64,000 nt of DNA from Paramagnetospirillum caucaseum (lineage in GTDB: Bacteria > Pseudomonadota > Alphaproteobacteria > Rhodospirillales > Magnetospirillaceae), in contig NZ_AONQ01000014.1 in NCBI RefSeq assembly GCF_000342045.1, positions 1-64,000 of the forward strand, read 5' to 3'. The notes below the pieces were generated by a model, which was not told the origin of the DNA, did not search any database, and worked only from the letters and a program-made list of their open reading frames with translations. Made by a program: the position numbers and the translations under genes. How positions within the stretch are numbered: position 1 is the first letter of the stretch; each line of letters starts with the position of its first letter. Positions 5,566-37,519 of the stretch are shown in pieces.

Positions 5566-6873
5566 ATGCGCATCGCCATGATCGGCACCGGCTATGTGGG
5601 TCTGGTGTCGGGAACCTGCTTCTCGGAATTCGGCATCGACGTCACCTGCGTCGACAAGGACGCCGCCAAGATCGAGAAGCTGCACCAGAACGTCATGCCC
5701 ATCTACGAGCCGGGCCTGGACGACATGGTCGCCGCCAATGTGGAAGCCGGCCGGCTGGCCTTCACCACCGACCTCAAGGCGGCGGTCAAGGATGCCGACG
5801 CGGTGTTCATCGCGGTGGGCACCCCGTCGCGGCGCGGCGACGGCCATGCCGACCTTTCCTACGTCTATGCCGCGGCCGAGGAAATCGCCGATGCCATGAC
5901 CGGCTACACCGTGGTGGTGACCAAGTCCACCGTGCCGGTGGGCACCGGCGACGAGGTGGAGCGCATCATCCGGGCGCGCCGCCCCGATGCCGAGTTCGAC
6001 GTGGTCTCCAATCCGGAATTCCTGCGCGAAGGCTCGGCCATCAACGACTTCATGCGGCCCGACCGCGTGGTGATCGGCACCGAATCCGAGAAGGCCCGCA
6101 AGGTGATGAAGCAACTCTATCGGGTGCTCTACCTGATCGAGACCCCCATCGCCTTCACCTCGCGCCGCACTTCCGAGCTGATCAAGTACGCCGGCAATAC
6201 CTTCCTGGCCACCAAGATCACCTTCATCAACGAGATCGCCGATCTGTGCGAGAAGGTGGGGGCCGACGTCCACGACGTGGCCAAGGGTATCGGCCTGGAC
6301 GGCCGCATCGGCAAGAAGTTCCTGCATCCCGGTCCCGGCTACGGCGGCTCGTGCTTCCCCAAGGACACCCTGGCCCTGGTCAAGACCGCGCGGGATTACG
6401 ACGCGCCCTTGCGTATCGTCGAGACGGTGGTGGCCGTCAACGACGCCCGCAAGAAGCAGATGGCCGAGCGGGTGATCGCCGCCTGCGGCGGCTCGGTCAA
6501 GGGCAGGACCGTCGCGGTGCTGGGCCTGACCTTCAAGCCCAACACCGACGACATGCGCGATTCGCCGTCCATCGACATCGTCACGGCCCTGGTCGAAGCC
6601 GGCGCCGCCGTCAAGGCCTTCGACCCCGAGGGCATGGAGGAGGCCAGGAAGCTGCTGCCTGCCGGCGTCGAATACTGCAAGGACGCCTACGCCACCATGC
6701 CGGGCGCCCATTGCGCGGTGATCATCACCGAGTGGAACGAGTTCCGCGCCCTCGACCTTAAGAAGGTCAAGTCGCTGCTGGCCTCTCCGGCCATCGTCGA
6801 CCTGCGCAACGTCTATGCGCCGGAAGAGATGGCCGAGCTGGGCTTCGCCTACACCAGCATCGGCCGGCCGTAG
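5566..6873 (+). CDS. ugd: UDP-glucose 6-dehydrogenase
   Basis: NAD-dependent four-electron oxidation of UDP-glucose to UDP-glucuronate. It is 435 aa, typical. The N-terminal Rossmann fingerprint is IGTGYVGLVSG; the catalytic block is GPGYGGSCFPKDT with the active-site Cys; NPEFLREGSAINDF and KSTVPVGTG are further family motifs. It lies 13 bp after galU and is almost certainly co-transcribed. A repeat-associated accessory patch follows before the next gene of the pathway (pgm), indicating an insertion between pathway genes or at least a cluster break. Confidence 0.95.
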   Translation: MRIAMIGTGYVGLVSGTCFSEFGIDVTCVDKDAAKIEKLHQNVMPIYEPGLDDMVAANVEAGRLAFTTDLKAAVKDADAVFIAVGTPSRRGDGHADLSYVYAAAEEIADAMTGYTVVVTKSTVPVGTGDEVERIIRARRPDAEFDVVSNPEFLREGSAINDFMRPDRVVIGTESEKARKVMKQLYRVLYLIETPIAFTSRRTSELIKYAGNTFLATKITFINEIADLCEKVGADVHDVAKGIGLDGRIGKKFLHPGPGYGGSCFPKDTLALVKTARDYDAPLRIVETVVAVNDARKKQMAERVIAACGGSVKGRTVAVLGLTFKPNTDDMRDSPSIDIVTALVEAGAAVKAFDPEGMEEARKLLPAGVEYCKDAYATMPGAHCAVIITEWNEFRALDLKKVKSLLASPAIVDLRNVYAPEEMAELGFAYTSIGRP

Positions 6874-6971: not shown

Positions 6972-7030
6972 GCAGCCGACTCCGGCTGGCAACACGGATG
7001 AACACAGATCAGCGCGGATGAACGCGGATG
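6972..7030 (+). repeat. Structured repeat R1 (GAACACGGATG family), forward orientation
   Basis: A small hairpin (AGCCGACTCCGGCT) is followed at 6991-7030 by four spaced copies of the word (A/C)ACGGATG or GCGGATG. The last copy contains the ATG used as start codon of the DUF2971 gene. Related copies in inverse orientation lie at 7882-7913 and 7957-8026, and relatives at 33876-33953 and 36122-36241. The function is not established; words of this type recur in intergenic regions of several bacteria (recollection, not checked). Confidence 0.8.
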
Positions 7031-7873
7031 GGCGACAAACCGGACACCCCCGAGATTCTCTACCACTATTGCAGCAATGCCGCCTTCCTCTCGATCATCG
7101 AGAGCGGCACCATCCGGCTGTCCGATCTCAGCCTGTCCAACGACAGCCAGGAAGGCCGGTGGGTGAAGAAGATAATCAATGATTCCCTGAAGCCTAGCGG
7201 TATCGAGACCGACATCCCGATGCGATATCTGGATGAAATCATAGATAAGACTCGGGCGCTCGGGTTCTGCGTGTCCGGGGACCATGACAGCCTGAGCCAA
7301 TGGAGAGCATGCGCCGACAATGCCTCTGGAGTAGCCATTGGCCTCTCGGCCGAATATTTGAAACTTTCATCACGCCCAAACCTCGGATTCCGCCACCACA
7401 TGGCGGGCTTTGACAGAGTTCGTTACAAATTAGATGAGCGGCAGCAACTTATTTTAGGGCTCATAGAAGAAATCTCATCAATTACCGCCGAAAATTAAGC
7501 AAAATTAACAAGAGAAGCAATTGCGCAATTAATAGATCAAAAAACTTCCGTCTTTATAGTTAGCAACCCATACGCACTATTTCTCATAAAGAATCCAAAA
7601 TTCTGTGAAGAGAATGAATATCGTACGCTTGTTCAGTACTTTACACCAAGTCAGCGAGAAAACAGTTTGGCTGATGTTCTTCAGCACAGGGTATCAGGGA
7701 ATGGGATTGTCCCTTTCTTGGCCGCGCGGCTTTGCCACAATGGCGGATCACCCATCAAGAGGGTCGTTCTCGGCCCCAGAAATAACACCCCAAAATACGT
7801 GATCGAAGACCTCCTGGCCAAGCACGGCCATGAGCGTGTCGATGTGGATCTATCCGAGGCCTCCTATCGTTGA
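7028..7873 (+). pseudogene. DUF2971 family gene interrupted by one in-frame TAA
   Basis: Reading one frame from the ATG at 7028 to the TGA at 7871-7873 gives 281 codons with a single internal stop, TAA at 7496-7498. Residues before the stop (LYHYCSNAAFLSIIESG, LSNDSQEGRW, SLSQWRACADNASGVAIGLS) match the DUF2971 pattern, and residues after it (NPKFCEENEYRTLVQYF) continue the same family. It is therefore one gene with a point nonsense change, not two genes. DUF2971 proteins are of unknown function and are scattered among accessory regions. Base composition is clearly AT-richer than the neighbours around 7300-7650, a sign of transfer. Its start codon sits inside repeat R1, and repeat R2 begins 8 bp after its stop. 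A sequencing error or a functional 156-aa truncated product cannot be excluded. Confidence 0.8.
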
Positions 7874-7881
7874 TCATCCCC

Positions 7882-7913
7882 TTCATCCGTGAACATCCGC
7901 GTCCATCCGTGTT
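7882..7913 (-). repeat. Repeat R2 (CATCCGTG family), inverse orientation to R1
   Basis: Thirty-two bases made of four spaced copies of CATCCGTG/CATCCGCG. It differs at only two positions from the right arm of R3 (7995-8026). Relative to R1 it is inverted, so the DUF2971 pseudogene is enclosed by inverted copies. Confidence 0.85.
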
Positions 7914-7956
7914 ACCTCATCCCCGTCGCCCGCACCTCTGCATGCAGCAAGAGCAG

Positions 7957-8026
7957 CACGGATAAACACAGATTGGTCTGAACAATCCGTCCCATTCATC
8001 CGTGGACATCCGCGTTCATCCGTGTT
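7957..8026. repeat. Repeat R3, self-complementary CACGGATA / CATCCGTG pair
   Basis: The left arm CACGGATAAACACAGATT (7957-7974) faces right-arm words AATCCGT (7984-7990) and CATCCGTG (from 7997), so the unit can fold on itself. It is preceded by the palindrome CTGCATGCAG (about 7938-7947). It ends 45 bp before the GxxExxY gene start, so it may lie in that gene's leader. Confidence 0.8.
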
Positions 8027-8071
8027 GTCCTCGCCTCGACCACCCCATCGCCCCACCCGCCACGACGTCCC

Positions 8072-8458
8072 ATGCTGTCTGAAGCAGAATCCGGCCTGAA
8101 TGCACTGACCGAACGCATCATCGGCGCGGCCTTTGCTGTGGCGAACGCCTTGGGCCATGGCTTCCTGGAAGTCGTCTACCGTAACGCCCTGTTCGAGGAA
8201 CTGAGCCTGGACGGCATTGCCGTCAGGAAGGAGCAGCCCTTCCCCGTCCATTACCGTGGACGGCAGGTAGGCCTTTACGTGGCCGATCTGGTGGAGGAAG
8301 ACAGGGTGATCGTGGAACTGAAGGCCATCGACGGGTTGGCGCAGTCCCACGCGGCGCAGGTCCTCAACGACCTCAAGGCCAGCACCCTGCCGGTGGGGCT
8401 GCTGCTGAATTTCGGGCGGCCGAAGCTGGAAATCCGTCGGGTGGTGTTGGCGAAATGA
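8072..8458 (+). CDS. GxxExxY family protein (PD-(D/E)XK nuclease fold)
   Basis: Protein of 128 aa. The family-defining motif is G30-F-L-E33-V-V-Y36. Downstream, D72 (YVADLV) and E82-L-K84 (VIVELKA) form the D...ExK core expected of the PD-(D/E)XK nuclease superfamily, to which this family is assigned. The C-terminal block HAAQVLNDLKAS...GLLLNFG is also characteristic. The catalytic triad looks intact, so a nuclease activity is possible, but no biochemical role is established that I know of. Repeats R2/R3 lie directly upstream; no good Shine-Dalgarno is visible, so the start is less certain. It is placed between ugd and pgm with the DUF2971 pseudogene, suggesting an accessory insert. Confidence 0.9.
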   Translation: MLSEAESGLNALTERIIGAAFAVANALGHGFLEVVYRNALFEELSLDGIAVRKEQPFPVHYRGRQVGLYVADLVEEDRVIVELKAIDGLAQSHAAQVLNDLKASTLPVGLLLNFGRPKLEIRRVVLAK

Positions 8459-10150
<1,692 letters not shown>

Positions 10151-33143: not shown

Positions 33144-33838
33144 GTCACGATACCGTCCGGCACTGGGACGCCGACCGCGCCGCCGCCTATGACCGGCGGG
33201 TGAGGGAGGCCATTCCCGGCTATGACGCCCTGCACGTCCTGTCGTGCCAGATCGTCGCCGAAACCACCTCCGGCCGTGGCCGCGCCCTGGTGATCGGGGC
33301 GGGGACGGGGGCCGAATGCATCGCCCTGGCGCAAAGCTGCCCCAACCTCTCGGTGGTGGGCGTCGATCCCAGCAAGGAGATGCTCGACCACGCCGAGGCC
33401 AAGGTGAAGGAGCACGACCTCACCGCCCGGGTGCGGCTCTATCCCGTCAAGGTCGGCGATCTGCCGAAGTTCGAGCCCTTCGACGCCGCCTCGCTGCTGC
33501 TGGTGATGCACTTCCTCAAGGACGACGGGGCGAAGAAGGCCCTGCTCGACGAGATCGCCGCCCATCTCAAGCCCGGCGCCCCCCTGATCCTCGCCGACCT
33601 GTTCGGCGCCTGGAGCGACGCGTGGCAGCAGCAGTTGCGCGGCTGGTGGCGGCACCTGCAACTGGCGGCGGGGATTCCCGAGGCCGAGGTGGAAAAGGGC
33701 TTCCGCCACGTGGACCGCGACATCTTCCCGGTCACCGAGGCCCGCCTGGCCGAATTGCTGGCCGAAACCGGCTTCGGCCGGCCGGAACCCTATTTCCGCG
33801 CGCTGTGCTTCGGCGGCTGGGTGGCCAGGAAGATTTAG
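33140..33838 (+). CDS. Class I SAM-dependent methyltransferase
   Basis: Protein of 232 aa with a Rossmann-like methyltransferase fold: motif I LVIGAGTGAECIALAQ, motif II VVGVDPSKEMLDHA, and a later LKPGAPLILADLFG block. The pattern resembles small-molecule or carboxyl methyltransferases; the substrate is unknown. It is coupled to trmL through an ATGA overlap. A structured repeat follows 37 bp after its stop. Confidence 0.85.
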   Translation: MSHDTVRHWDADRAAAYDRRVREAIPGYDALHVLSCQIVAETTSGRGRALVIGAGTGAECIALAQSCPNLSVVGVDPSKEMLDHAEAKVKEHDLTARVRLYPVKVGDLPKFEPFDAASLLLVMHFLKDDGAKKALLDEIAAHLKPGAPLILADLFGAWSDAWQQQLRGWWRHLQLAAGIPEAEVEKGFRHVDRDIFPVTEARLAELLAETGFGRPEPYFRALCFGGWVARKI

Positions 33839-33875
33839 GGCCAATCGACATTCAAGCGGATGGGACGAAAAACGG

Positions 33876-33953
33876 GCCACAGATGAACACAGATTCCCGC
33901 TACGCGGGACACAGATAAGGAATATTCTCAATTCATCTGTGTTTACCTGTGGC
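33876..33953. repeat. Structured repeat R4 (CATCTGTG variant)
   Basis: The outer stem GCCACAGATGAACACAGA (33876-33893) pairs with 33936-33953 at 16 of 18 positions. Inside is a perfect hairpin TCCCGCTACGCGGGA (33895-33909), then CACAGAT (33910-33916), which could alternatively pair with ATCTGTG. The layout matches R5 at 36122. Lies between convergent genes (methyltransferase and the 183-aa hypothetical protein). Confidence 0.85.
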
Positions 33954-34018
33954 TGAAATTTCTGTCAGGAAGACGCTCTGGCCTGAAATCAGCCGAATTT
34001 CCTGAATGTCGATACAGC

Positions 34019-34570
34019 CTAGGACCCGCCCAGCAATCCATCGATCTCGACCTGAGCCATGGCGCGGTCCGAGCCGTGGATGATGGCGTTGGCGCAGTCC
34101 ATCAGGGCCTGGGCGGCGCGGCTGATGGCCTTGACGTGCTCGGCGGTGAGCGCCGGGTCGGTGCCGCCGACGATCTCGTCCTCCAGCTTGGCGACGCCGC
34201 CGAGGATCAGGGTGTTGAGGTGGTTGATGGTCTCCTCGAAGGGGCGGCGGAACTTGGACGGCACGCGGTCATAGGCCTCCACCGCCAGCAGCTTGTCCTT
34301 GAAGGTGGAATCGGCGAAATGCTCCTGGTAGCTCTTCGGAGCCCACATCTTGCATTCCTCGATCATGTCCGGCATGTCCGGCACCATGTCGAGCAGCATG
34401 ACGATTTCGTTGAAGTGGTTGAGGTAATCGGTGGCGAGCAGGGTCTGGGCGCTGATATTGGTGCCGCCGACCCTGACAACGTATTCCTCGAATGCCGCCC
34501 GCTCTTCCGGCGGGATATCAGATTCCGTCACCACCCCTCCTTGGACCCGCGCCGACTCCCGGTCCGCCAT
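34019..34570 (-). CDS. Conserved hypothetical protein
   Basis: Soluble protein of 183 aa that I do not recognise. Mostly predicted helical, acidic, with no signal peptide or membrane span. Landmarks: SDIPPEERAAFEEYVVRVGG near the N-terminus, DYLNHFNEIVMLLDMVPDMP, and a C-terminal helix ending ALMDCANAIIHGSDRAMAQV. The N-terminal start is uncertain. It lies next to the rlmH operon on the same strand but about 50 bp upstream of nothing co-directional, so is probably transcribed after rlmH or alone. Confidence 0.65.
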   Translation of the reverse strand: MADRESARVQGGVVTESDIPPEERAAFEEYVVRVGGTNISAQTLLATDYLNHFNEIVMLLDMVPDMPDMIEECKMWAPKSYQEHFADSTFKDKLLAVEAYDRVPSKFRRPFEETINHLNTLILGGVAKLEDEIVGGTDPALTAEHVKAISRAAQALMDCANAIIHGSDRAMAQVEIDGLLGGS

Positions 34571-35492: not shown

Positions 35493-36100
35493 GGTTCTCT
35501 CCTGTTGCGGATGGCGGTAGACGAGGCGGCGTGGCGCCGGATGTGCAGGAACACCCAGGCGGGCGGCTGTCCTTGCCACAGAAATCGGGCCCTCGGCGAG
35601 GGCAGGCGGCGTCCGGCGAAGCGGTGGGCCGCTTGGGCGCCCAGGGTTCGGGCAGAATAGGGACCGCGGGCCAGAATCGCAACGGGGACAGCGCGGAAGA
35701 TGCTTTCCCAGCGGGCCCAGCGATGGAATCCGGCCAGATTGTCGGCGCCCATCAGCCAGACGAAGCGGATGCGGGGAAAGCGACGCCGCAATACGCCCAG
35801 GGTATCGGCGGTGTAGCGCGTGCCCAATTCCGTCTCGATGGCGGTGGGGCGCAAGTGGGGATGGCCGGCGCACACCGCCTCGGCCGAGGCGAGGCGCTCG
35901 GGGAACGGCGCCATGCCGGCCACCGGCTTCAAGGGGTTCTGCGGACTGACCAGCAGCCAGACCTCGTCCAGCCTCAGCAGCCGCAGGGCCAGCAGGGCGA
36001 TGTGCCGGTGCCCGTCATGGGCCGGGTTGAACGAGCCGCCCAGAAGGCCGACCCGCGCCCGGCGGGGCTCGCCCCAGGGATTGAGCCTCGGGCGGGTCAT
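35489..36100 (-). CDS. nadD: Nicotinate-nucleotide adenylyltransferase
   Basis: Adenylates nicotinate mononucleotide in NAD synthesis. It is 203 aa. The nucleotidyltransferase signature is [19 protein letters not shown] (with HxGH), followed by [13 protein letters not shown] and [14 protein letters not shown]; the second signature ISSTxIR appears as ASSTAIRNR at the C-terminus. Its TAG stop shares bases with the proposed ATA start of rsfS. A 120-bp structured repeat separates it from proA. Confidence 0.95.
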
Positions 36101-36121
36101 GACGGTTCCGGCTTTTCACGG

Positions 36122-36241
36122 GACACGGATGGACGCGGATGCCGGCTGCGCCGGCCACGGATGGACGGTGAAGTGGACATTATTCCACTCCGATCCGTGT
36201 CCATCCGTGAGCGCGAGGCGCAATCCGTGTTCATCCGTGTT
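36122..36241. repeat. Structured repeat R5, nested cruciform of CACGGATG/CATCCGTG words
   Basis: Symmetric layout: outer arms ACACGGATGGACGCGGAT (from 36123) and the facing AATCCGTG..CATCCGTGTT (36222-36241); side hairpins GCCGGCTGCGCCGGC (36141-36155) and GCGCGAGGCGC (36211-36221); inner arms CACGGATGGAC (36156-36166) and GTCCATCCGTG (36199-36209), perfectly complementary; and a top stem AGTGGA/TCCACT around CATTAT. Lies between nadD and proA, which are co-directional. Confidence 0.88.
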
Positions 36242-36254
36242 CCTCGGCAAAATC

Positions 36255-37519
36255 TCAGCCGGGCCTGGTCTGGCCGCTGCCCTTCACCACGTATTTGAAG
36301 GTGCAGAGCTGTTCGACGCCCACCGGGCCGCGCGCGTGCATCTTGCCCGTCGAGATGCCGATTTCGGCGCCCATGCCGAACTCGCCGCCATCGGCGAACT
36401 GGGTCGAGGCGTTCCACAGCACGATGGCCGAGTCGCATCCCTGCAGGAAGGTCTCGGCGGCTTTCGGGTCCCCGGCGATGATCGCCTCGGTGTGGTGCGA
36501 GCCATAGGTGTTGATGTGCTCCACCGCAGCCCCCACCCCGTCCACCACCTTCACCGAGATGACGGCGTCGAGGTATTCGGTGCTCCAGTCGGCTTCGGCG
36601 GCGGGCGACACCCGGCAATCGGCGTCCTGGGCCGGCTGGTCGCCCCGCACCTCGCAGCCCGCATCGATCAGCATGGCGACCAGGGGCGCGAGGTGGGTTC
36701 CGGCGCAGGCACGATCGACCAGCAGCGTCTCGGTGGCGCCGCAGACGCCGGTGCGGCGCATCTTGGCGTTGAGCACGATGGTTCTGGCCATCTCCAGGTC
36801 GGCGGAACCGTCCACATAGGTGTGGCAGATGCCTTCCAGGTGCTGGAACAGGGGAATGCGGCTCTCGGCCACCACCCGTTCGACCAGCGACTTGCCGCCG
36901 CGCGGCACGATGACGTCGATATACTCGGACAGGCGCAGCATGGCGCCCACCGCCTCGCGGTCGGTGGTCGGCACCATCTGCACCGCGTCGGCGGGCAGGC
37001 CGCAGGCGGCAAAACCGCCCGAGAGCGCCGTCAGGATGGCCTGGGACGAATGGAAGCTTTCCGAGCCGCCGCGCAGGATGGTGGCGTTGCCCGATTTCAG
37101 GCAAAGCGCGGCGGCGTCGGCGGTGACGTTCGGGCGGCTCTCGTAGATGATGCCGATCACCCCCAGCGGCACGGCGACGCGGGAAATGTGCATGCCGTTG
37201 GGCCGGGTCCATTCGGCCAGCGAGCGCCCCACCGGATCGGGCAGCCGGGCGATGTCCTCCAGCCCCTTGGCCATGGCCTCGACGCGGGCCGGATCGAGCA
37301 TCAGGCGGTCGAGCATGGCCTTGGTGAGCCCCTTGGCCTCGCCCGCTTCCATGTCACGCGCATTGGCGGCGAGGATCAGCCCGGCATCGATGCGGATGGC
37401 CTGCGCCGCGGCGCGCAGCGCCTTGTCCTTTTGCTCGGACGGGACCAGGGCGAGCGCACGGGCGGCGGCGCGGGCGCGCCGGCCCAAATCGGTCATCAGG
37501 GTATCGAGGTTGGCGGTCA

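Follow-up and report, generated by a model that had tools for sequence, protein, structure and literature searches.

Clade-specific inverted heptamer arrays accompany GxxExxY nuclease-fold genes in Paramagnetospirillum caucaseum and its distant relatives

Short inverted repeats surround two small reading frames in a sugar-nucleotide region of Paramagnetospirillum caucaseum (assembly GCF_000342045.1), raising the question of whether such repeats belong to a particular gene and, if so, to which. The stretch analysed, referred to here as the window, comprises positions 1 to 64,000 of the forward strand of contig NZ_AONQ01000014.1, and the gene at issue encodes GxxExxY, a small protein with a predicted PD-(D/E)XK nuclease fold, which is preceded by a DUF2971 frame. 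A preliminary description of the locus, made from the letters alone, placed three repeats (R1, R2, and R3) around the two frames and suggested that they may be mobilised, copied or recognised by the nuclease-fold protein, or else mark a cassette that moves with DUF2971. The repeats lie where it placed them, and their association with the nuclease-fold gene holds among relatives, where inverted arrays often bracket the gene, differ in type between clades of the protein, and are more numerous in genomes that carry it. The repeating unit had been taken as a word of 32-40 nt and has to be redrawn as a tandem of about 10 nt with the heptamer core CRCRGAT, as in CACGGAT-GAA-CACAGAT.

Bracketing was scored as the best inverted match between the 220 bp upstream and the 220 bp downstream of a gene, and pairs of intervals slid along the same loci served as controls. 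The first sample, the best 80 of 545 relatives in named genomes, spans Planctomycetota, Acidobacteriota, Chloroflexota, several proteobacterial groups, and two metagenome-assembled genomes of Methanosarcinales; a protein of the 'GFLE' branch described below led its alignment, so that the 'GLLE' branch is under-represented. L080 and L140 were dropped for short flanks (handles beginning with L denote loci, those with G genomes), and 62 of the remaining 78 loci scored above the 99th percentile and 35 above the maximum of 2,176 controls. For a second sample of 30 loci, drawn from the 57 genomes above the curated family cut-off in a 299-genome phylum sample, 23 exceeded the 99th percentile and 20 the maximum of 393 controls. 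Within the window's genus, 11 of 17 loci were bracketed (score at least 21.5) and six scored at background (8.5 or less), and the arms near these 17 genes take the forms CACAGAT, CACGGAT, and CACGAAT along with the differing CACGAAGG and CACCAAGA. Together the 80, 30, and 17 loci make up a set of 127, from which the contig-end fragment L045 was left out and in which L103 and L145 were kept despite a stop inside the match. A strict heptamer count over this set finds inverted arrays on both sides in 72 loci, an array on one side in 30, and none on either side in 25. The 35 well-preserved gene units are 429-637 bp long, and outer ends of gene units include TTAGCC, ATGGAACC, AATGGGAC and similar sequences. 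Four 'GLLE' genes of the genus (L034, L035, L040, and L046) have an array on the upstream side only.

The arrays fall into two types, and the type follows the protein. Two large branches of GxxExxY can be read from the motif after LGxG, which is 'GFLE' in one and 'GLLE' in the other. T-type arrays repeat CRCNRAT every 9-10 bp, mostly 10 (spacers of 3 nt in 206 of 224 junctions and of 2 nt in 18), and G-type arrays repeat CRCNRAG every 8-10 bp with spacers of 1-3 nt. T-type arrays accompany 65 of the 91 'GFLE' loci, with G-type arrays at 3 and none at 23, while the 31 'GLLE' loci have G-type arrays in 29 cases, T-type arrays in 0, and none in 2; the five loci left unclassed by the motif are T-type (4) and G-type (1). 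Background windows hold T arrays in 38 and G arrays in 40 of 3,320. A Fisher test of clade against arm type gives p 1e-21, with relatedness ignored, and a protein tree of the 75 labelled loci with at least four heptamers requires 2 arm-type changes, compared with 19.1 (sd 1.5) after shuffling, a value as low being reached in 0 of 500 shuffles. Both arm types coexist in single genomes of the genus, such as G003, each with its own protein branch, so host taxonomy is no explanation for arm type. Because arm type matches clade, recognition of the array by GxxExxY is supported, and the arms and the protein very probably form a cognate pair, one whose clade-specific arrays offer a candidate substrate for bench experiments on GxxExxY. 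At a finer scale, letters 4-6 of the heptamer show no clear signal on the tree of T-type loci (19 changes, compared with 21.2 shuffled), and fine dialects are not claimed for that reason; letter 2 (A or G) does track the tree (9 changes against 17.8 shuffled), which may reflect host base composition. The single G-type match at L121, a 'GFLE' locus, may be chance.

Gene units and gene-free pairs of arms are discrete insertions, present or absent at orthologous intergenic sites, and they have terminal inverted repeats and a precise empty site, as insertion sequences do. The clearest gene unit lies between accD and trpA, where 13 genomes were aligned: the whole GxxExxY unit is present in G009, G013, G014, and G003, the two flank probes are only 23-34 bp apart in G010, G000, G005, G006, and G011, and the spacing is about 300 bp in G015 and about 70 bp in G007, G001, and G002. 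The flanks of G010 at this site are 93-96% identical to those of G009. In the window itself, the relatives of the repeat that had been reported at 33.9 and 36.2 kb are real and belong to two dispersed features:

33836..34022, no strand assigned: a dispersed repeat of 187 bp that has outer inverted ends of its own and encloses a convergent arm pair (33876-33894 / 33935-33953).
36099..36255, no strand assigned: a hairpin insertion of about 156 bp with T-type arms, in the nadD-proA intergenic region.

The second of these, the 36.1-kb hairpin, is filled in G009, G006, and G011 and empty in G010, G005, G013, G015, and G003. Empty sites, whose absence from close relatives would have counted against the preliminary description, thus exist, both for the accD-trpA unit and for this hairpin. 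A further insert of 452 bp with an arm pair is present in G009 (L456), and G010 is without it. The 187-bp repeat has seven other copies in its own genome, at 85-93% identity, among the matches listed, and 13-15 matches each are listed in G003, G012, and G013; its site at 33.9 kb is empty in G005, and G009, G013, G010, G011, and G006 carry other sequence there.

Arm pairs are also scattered through some genomes away from any GxxExxY gene. Allowing up to 3 mismatches, the repeat word matches 16 times in the window, against 1.94 expected, and 0 of 100 shuffles reach 16; at up to 2 mismatches, it matches 45 times in the 4.86-Mb genome, against 4 for a reversed control. Such matches are more numerous in genomes that have the gene. 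Of the 57 GxxExxY-positive genomes in the phylum sample, 21 have at least 2 matches to the T-type word, as do 5 of the 242 others (G017, whose family match is below the curated cut-off and which has 2 word matches, was counted as negative), and in the best-sampled family the figures are 20/45 with the gene and 3/29 without. The 8 genomes of the genus that carry a 'GFLE' gene have more word matches than the other 9 (p 0.007). The structure of these copies was read in 40 regions, a subset of the listed sites, of two repeat-rich genomes, G041 and G176, under a one-mismatch definition of an arm. Exactly 27 nt, or three heptamers, is the length of 58 of the 71 arms, all 22 adjacent pairs (less than 200 bp apart) are convergent, and 27 of the 71 arms are single; the pair interiors measure 24-181 bp and are unlike one another. 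The 20 regions read in G009 contain 24 adjacent pairs, 17 of them convergent, and 46 arms, 5 of them single. As single strands, seven solo pairs from the window's genus form strong folds (z -3.3 to -8.4), while R1 alone does not (z 0.25). At a spacing of ten nucleotides, successive T-type heptamers face the same side of the helix, as would suit a protein that binds duplex DNA. Two of the hairpins (window 36115-36248 and L450 1015-1132) carry two small GC hairpins opposite one another in the stem, which would place a four-way junction in the folded strand.

These patterns lead us to lean, though not strongly, towards the view that the GxxExxY protein is what spreads the arms. The nuclease would bind the array of its own clade and would cut DNA at that array, and the cut hairpin could then be repaired or replicated in a way that copies the bracketed segment to new intergenic places, with the gene-free pairs as presumed non-autonomous riders. 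The bracketed nuclease gene and the scattered gene-free hairpins together suggest an overlooked family of tiny mobile DNA. If GxxExxY does spread its own arrays, it would form with them a gene-plus-repeat element built around a PD-(D/E)XK nuclease and lacking a classical transposase, and the short 'CACGGATGAACACGGATG'-like repeats found in many genomes would be explained.

Several observations weigh against this view. An array is missing from one or both sides in 55 of the 127 loci, and the window gene and its G009 counterpart are themselves among the six genus loci at background score, the window gene having no 3' arm and a score of 8.5. L080 and L125, which share the same printed start, are 'GFLE' proteins with G-type arrays. 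No consistent target-site duplication, of shared length or position, was found among the 35 well-preserved units (TCA flanks one hairpin on both sides, which may be chance). The association of repeats with the gene, which the preliminary description had proposed to count, came out mainly in favour of the link to the nuclease-fold gene and has exceptions. The contrast weakens at a threshold of at least 1 match (28/57 genomes versus 48/242, and 25/45 versus 9/29 in one family, p 0.06); 29 of the 57 GxxExxY-positive genomes have no T-type word match, many of which may carry 'GLLE' genes only; and repeats occur without GxxExxY in G179, G285, G258, and G282, in G006 (16 matches), and in G012 (13 matches listed to the 187-bp family, one word match). 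G009 departs from G041 and G176 in that 36 of its 46 arms measure 17 nt (two heptamers) instead of 27 and 7 of 24 adjacent pairs fail to converge. The gene-free interiors of G041 and G176 are not truncated versions of the gene unit. In the same two genomes, the mirror positions of paired arms agree no more often than chance, the identity being 0.517 observed and 0.517 shuffled over 18 pairs, one of them a GxxExxY unit. Strict hairpin pairing was rejected as a conserved feature of G041 and G176 because these pairs show no covariation. Finally, since the 187-bp repeat has outer ends of its own, another transposase may have spread it.

Several of the same points sustain the best-surviving alternative, in which the arrays are the ends of elements moved by another enzyme, such as an insertion sequence (IS) or RAYT transposase, with GxxExxY as a mere passenger: the 187-bp family encloses arms within its own outer inverted ends, G006 and G012 hold their repeats without the gene, and a second family of small genes has the same architecture with other units. 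That family, the S23 or 23S rRNA intervening-sequence proteins (S23/IVP; TIGR02436, PF05635), was examined as a comparison after L437 and L438 had been dropped for short flanks. Here too, inverted arrays of short tandem units lie close on both sides of a small open reading frame, and 21 of 30 loci exceed the 99th percentile set by 317 controls. The protein, presumably a four-helix bundle, is unrelated to GxxExxY, and its units are purine-rich; S23 genes at L405-L434 (for example L407, L419, L409, and L433) have GTAGGCA, GTGAGGAGT and others. S23 genes thus have unit types of their own, and the array types of GxxExxY appear in 0 of the 30 loci, which counts against the passenger reading, as do the coexistence within one genome of both GxxExxY arm types, each tied to its clade, and the 2 changes on the tree where shuffling gives 19, since a passenger should not dictate the ends of the element that carries it. 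The S23 parallel favours a pairing of each small protein with arrays of its own, and at the same time leaves room for a shared mechanism supplied by a third party. On this balance, a passenger role for GxxExxY is unlikely.

A different possibility is that the arrays do not move at all and serve as operators or RNA-processing sites for the regulation or insulation of GxxExxY, other copies being a regulon or decayed remains. The position of the arms within the 220 bp searched on each side of the gene, the strong single-strand folding of the seven solo pairs, and the upstream-only arrays of the four genus 'GLLE' loci would all suit such a role. An operator has no need, however, of an inverted array past the stop codon, yet 72 of the 127 loci have one in addition to the upstream array; whole units and gene-free pairs behave as discrete insertions, their sites being empty in some relatives; and the interiors of the pairs in two genomes do not resemble one another. 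A purely regulatory role is accordingly judged improbable, more so than that of a passenger.

The protein itself is well placed in its family. GxxExxY of the window matches TIGR04256 (E 5e-39, 133.2 bits against a curated cut-off of 35) and PF13366, PDDEXK_3 (E 1e-36, 126.2 bits against a cut-off of 22). In an alignment of 79 GxxExxY proteins, D72 is invariant and E82 and K84 are kept in at least 90%, so that the core that had been called intact is present in all three residues; Y100, also kept in at least 90%, is D in the window protein. The AlphaFold2 model (pLDDT 95.9) adopts a PD-(D/E)XK fold, and its best structural match is SSO0001 (4ic1; Z 10.1, rmsd 3.8, 101 residues aligned), which we take to be a Cas4-type nuclease. 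R.SwaI and the Cas4 protein Pcal_0546 also match, the Holliday-junction resolvases 2eo0 and 4tkd do so at a Z of only about 6, too weak for argument, and the sole sequence match in the Protein Data Bank has an E of 0.68. With the core fold predicted by the model and the D...ExK residues in place, GxxExxY belongs to the PD-(D/E)XK superfamily and is probably an active nuclease; it resembles SSO0001, R.SwaI, and Pcal_0546 in fold and active-site residues and differs from them in being a single domain of 128 aa.

GxxExxY occurs across many phyla of bacteria and archaea, and its distribution is patchy, with matches in 58 of the 299 phylum-sample genomes at E<=0.001 (57 above the curated cut-off) and, within the genus, in 9 of 17 genomes (18 matches). 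A search with one GxxExxY query at E 1e-5 found 8 matches among 72,556 plasmid records and 0 among 50,697 phage records, and three members had no match in PHROGs. One of two plasmid loci that were fetched is bracketed (L484, score 22.5) and the other is not (L483, 6.5). A GxxExxY protein of an algal virus is listed in one paper. The literature searched, which left bioRxiv and most subscription journals outside, yielded incidental mentions of GxxExxY and no description of its role, no occurrence of six repeat words, and no description of the pairing of GxxExxY with arrays; Rfam gave no match at the gathering score in the window and ten loci. A lone, patchily distributed small gene with a nuclease fold (58/299 genomes) might instead be a defence or addiction nuclease, the arrays being protected or self-recognition sites, but PADLOC has no match for three members, units of 429-637 bp leave no space for a sizeable partner, and the two sites examined sit between housekeeping genes, all of which makes this very improbable.

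Set against these relatives, the window locus is a worn example. Its features are as follows:

5566..6873, + strand: left neighbour, a nucleotide sugar dehydrogenase (ugd-like).
6991..7030, + strand: R1, a T-type arm of four CRCRGAT heptamers at 10-nt pitch.
7028..7873, + strand: DUF2971 pseudogene with an in-frame TAA at 7496-7498, a passenger between R1 and R2.
7882..7913, - strand: R2, an inverted T-type arm with three heptamer positions, identical in the G009 copy.
7957..8026, no strand assigned: R3, a convergent arm pair (+ 7957-7974, - 7995-8026) directly upstream of GxxExxY, not there in G009.
8072..8458, + strand: GxxExxY gene, 128 aa, PD-(D/E)XK fold, with D72, E82, and K84 kept and Y100 replaced by D.
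8522..10150, + strand: right neighbour, phosphoglucomutase (pgm).

As had been stated, 2 of 32 bases distinguish R2 from the right arm of R3, and the two are 92% identical over 37 nt. Among the 17 genomes of the genus, the ugd-pgm insert has a match only in G009, which shares R1, the DUF2971 remnant, R2, and GxxExxY, with R3 confined to the window. The ugd and pgm flanks are about 28-126 bp apart in G004, G006, G011, and G016; elsewhere in the genus, several genomes have 0.8-1.4 kb of other sequence between them, and in some the flanks are separated. DUF2971 had been described as a gene, and the TAA at 7496-7498 reduces it to a fragment of 156 aa. In G009 its open frame runs for 227 codons from stop to stop, with the first part outside. 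The middle part of DUF2971 (window 7028-7873 compared with L443 of G009) is strongly diverged, yet the flanking R2 is identical. The only other DUF2971 copy in the genus that adjoins arms is this same locus in G009, and the 4 other testable copies have none (two further copies had too little flank). The suggestion of a repeat-bounded cassette moving with DUF2971, which draws on the position of that frame between R1 and R2 in the window and in G009, is therefore scarcely credible, and DUF2971 was rejected as a partner of the repeats, given the TAA in the window, the incomplete frame in G009, and the 0 of 4 other genus copies with arms. We read the window unit as old or ageing, its 3' arm gone, a broken DUF2971 trapped between two arms, and a near-invariant residue lost.

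The closest known parallel is the REP-associated tyrosine transposase (RAYT) and its repetitive extragenic palindromic (REP) sequences. REP/RAYT systems likewise have a chromosomal gene beside its repeats (PMC8266576, PMC3116915), copies of the repeat scattered mostly as inverted doublets whose spacer varies, in numbers that track the gene, protein groups that co-evolve with the repeats, and a mostly chromosomal location, GxxExxY being rare on plasmids. The REPIN layout they describe (PMC3116915) is close to the convergent pairs of G041 and G176. By analogy, GxxExxY and its arrays probably work like RAYT and REP, a PD-(D/E)XK protein taking the place of the HUH enzyme. The differences are nevertheless plain. 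RAYT is an HUH tyrosine enzyme and GxxExxY has a PD-(D/E)XK fold, and because the HUH enzyme is missing, GxxExxY is not a member of REP/RAYT; REP sequences are palindromes, whereas the GxxExxY arms are tandem heptamers at a pitch of 8-10 nt. Compensatory changes are reported for REPINs, in contrast to the absence of mirror covariation in the 18 pairs. Whole GxxExxY gene units have clean empty sites, whereas for tnpA-REP no evidence of movement is reported (PMC8266576).

Likeness to miniature inverted-repeat transposable elements (MITEs) and small IS lies in the short inverted ends, the small size of the units, their intergenic position, and their polymorphism among relatives. The GxxExxY units differ from both in having no consistent target-site duplication, no known transposase family, and, in G041 and G176, solo interiors that do not seem to derive from one longer element. 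A classical DDE insertion sequence would be expected to leave a target-site duplication, which the 35 units do not consistently show. The 187-bp family of the window's genus does resemble a MITE.

A bolder formulation, which we offer tentatively and regard with some doubt, is that GxxExxY represents a self-contained, minimal class of mobile DNA of bacteria and archaea in which a PD-(D/E)XK nuclease of about 125 aa would be the sole protein, would read the heptamer arrays of its clade, with T-type units roughly one helical turn apart, and would copy array-bounded segments without target-site duplication, S23/IVP being a second, independent protein that has converged on this lifestyle or shares it. 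The S23/IVP parallel suggests that small proteins enclosed by inverted arrays of tandem units may be a general and overlooked form of bacterial DNA.

Some further features of the dispersed copies may be recorded. The 187-bp repeat has outer inverted ends CGACATTCA...TGAATGTCG with the heptamer hairpin inside, and occurs also in G000 at C1, C15, C45, C52, C59, C69, and C84. At the 33.9-kb site, G006 (L158, about 1100-1500) carries a different insertion of about 400 bp, whose longer inverted ends, CCGGTTTAAATT / AATTAAACCGG, enclose a T-type arm pair, and related sequence is present in G009 loci such as L454, L456, and L459. Two unusually long arms, of 107 nt (G041:C1:232589-232695, L366) and 87 nt (G041:C6:144387-144463, L375), contain about 11 and 9 heptamers and look like products of expansion by slippage.

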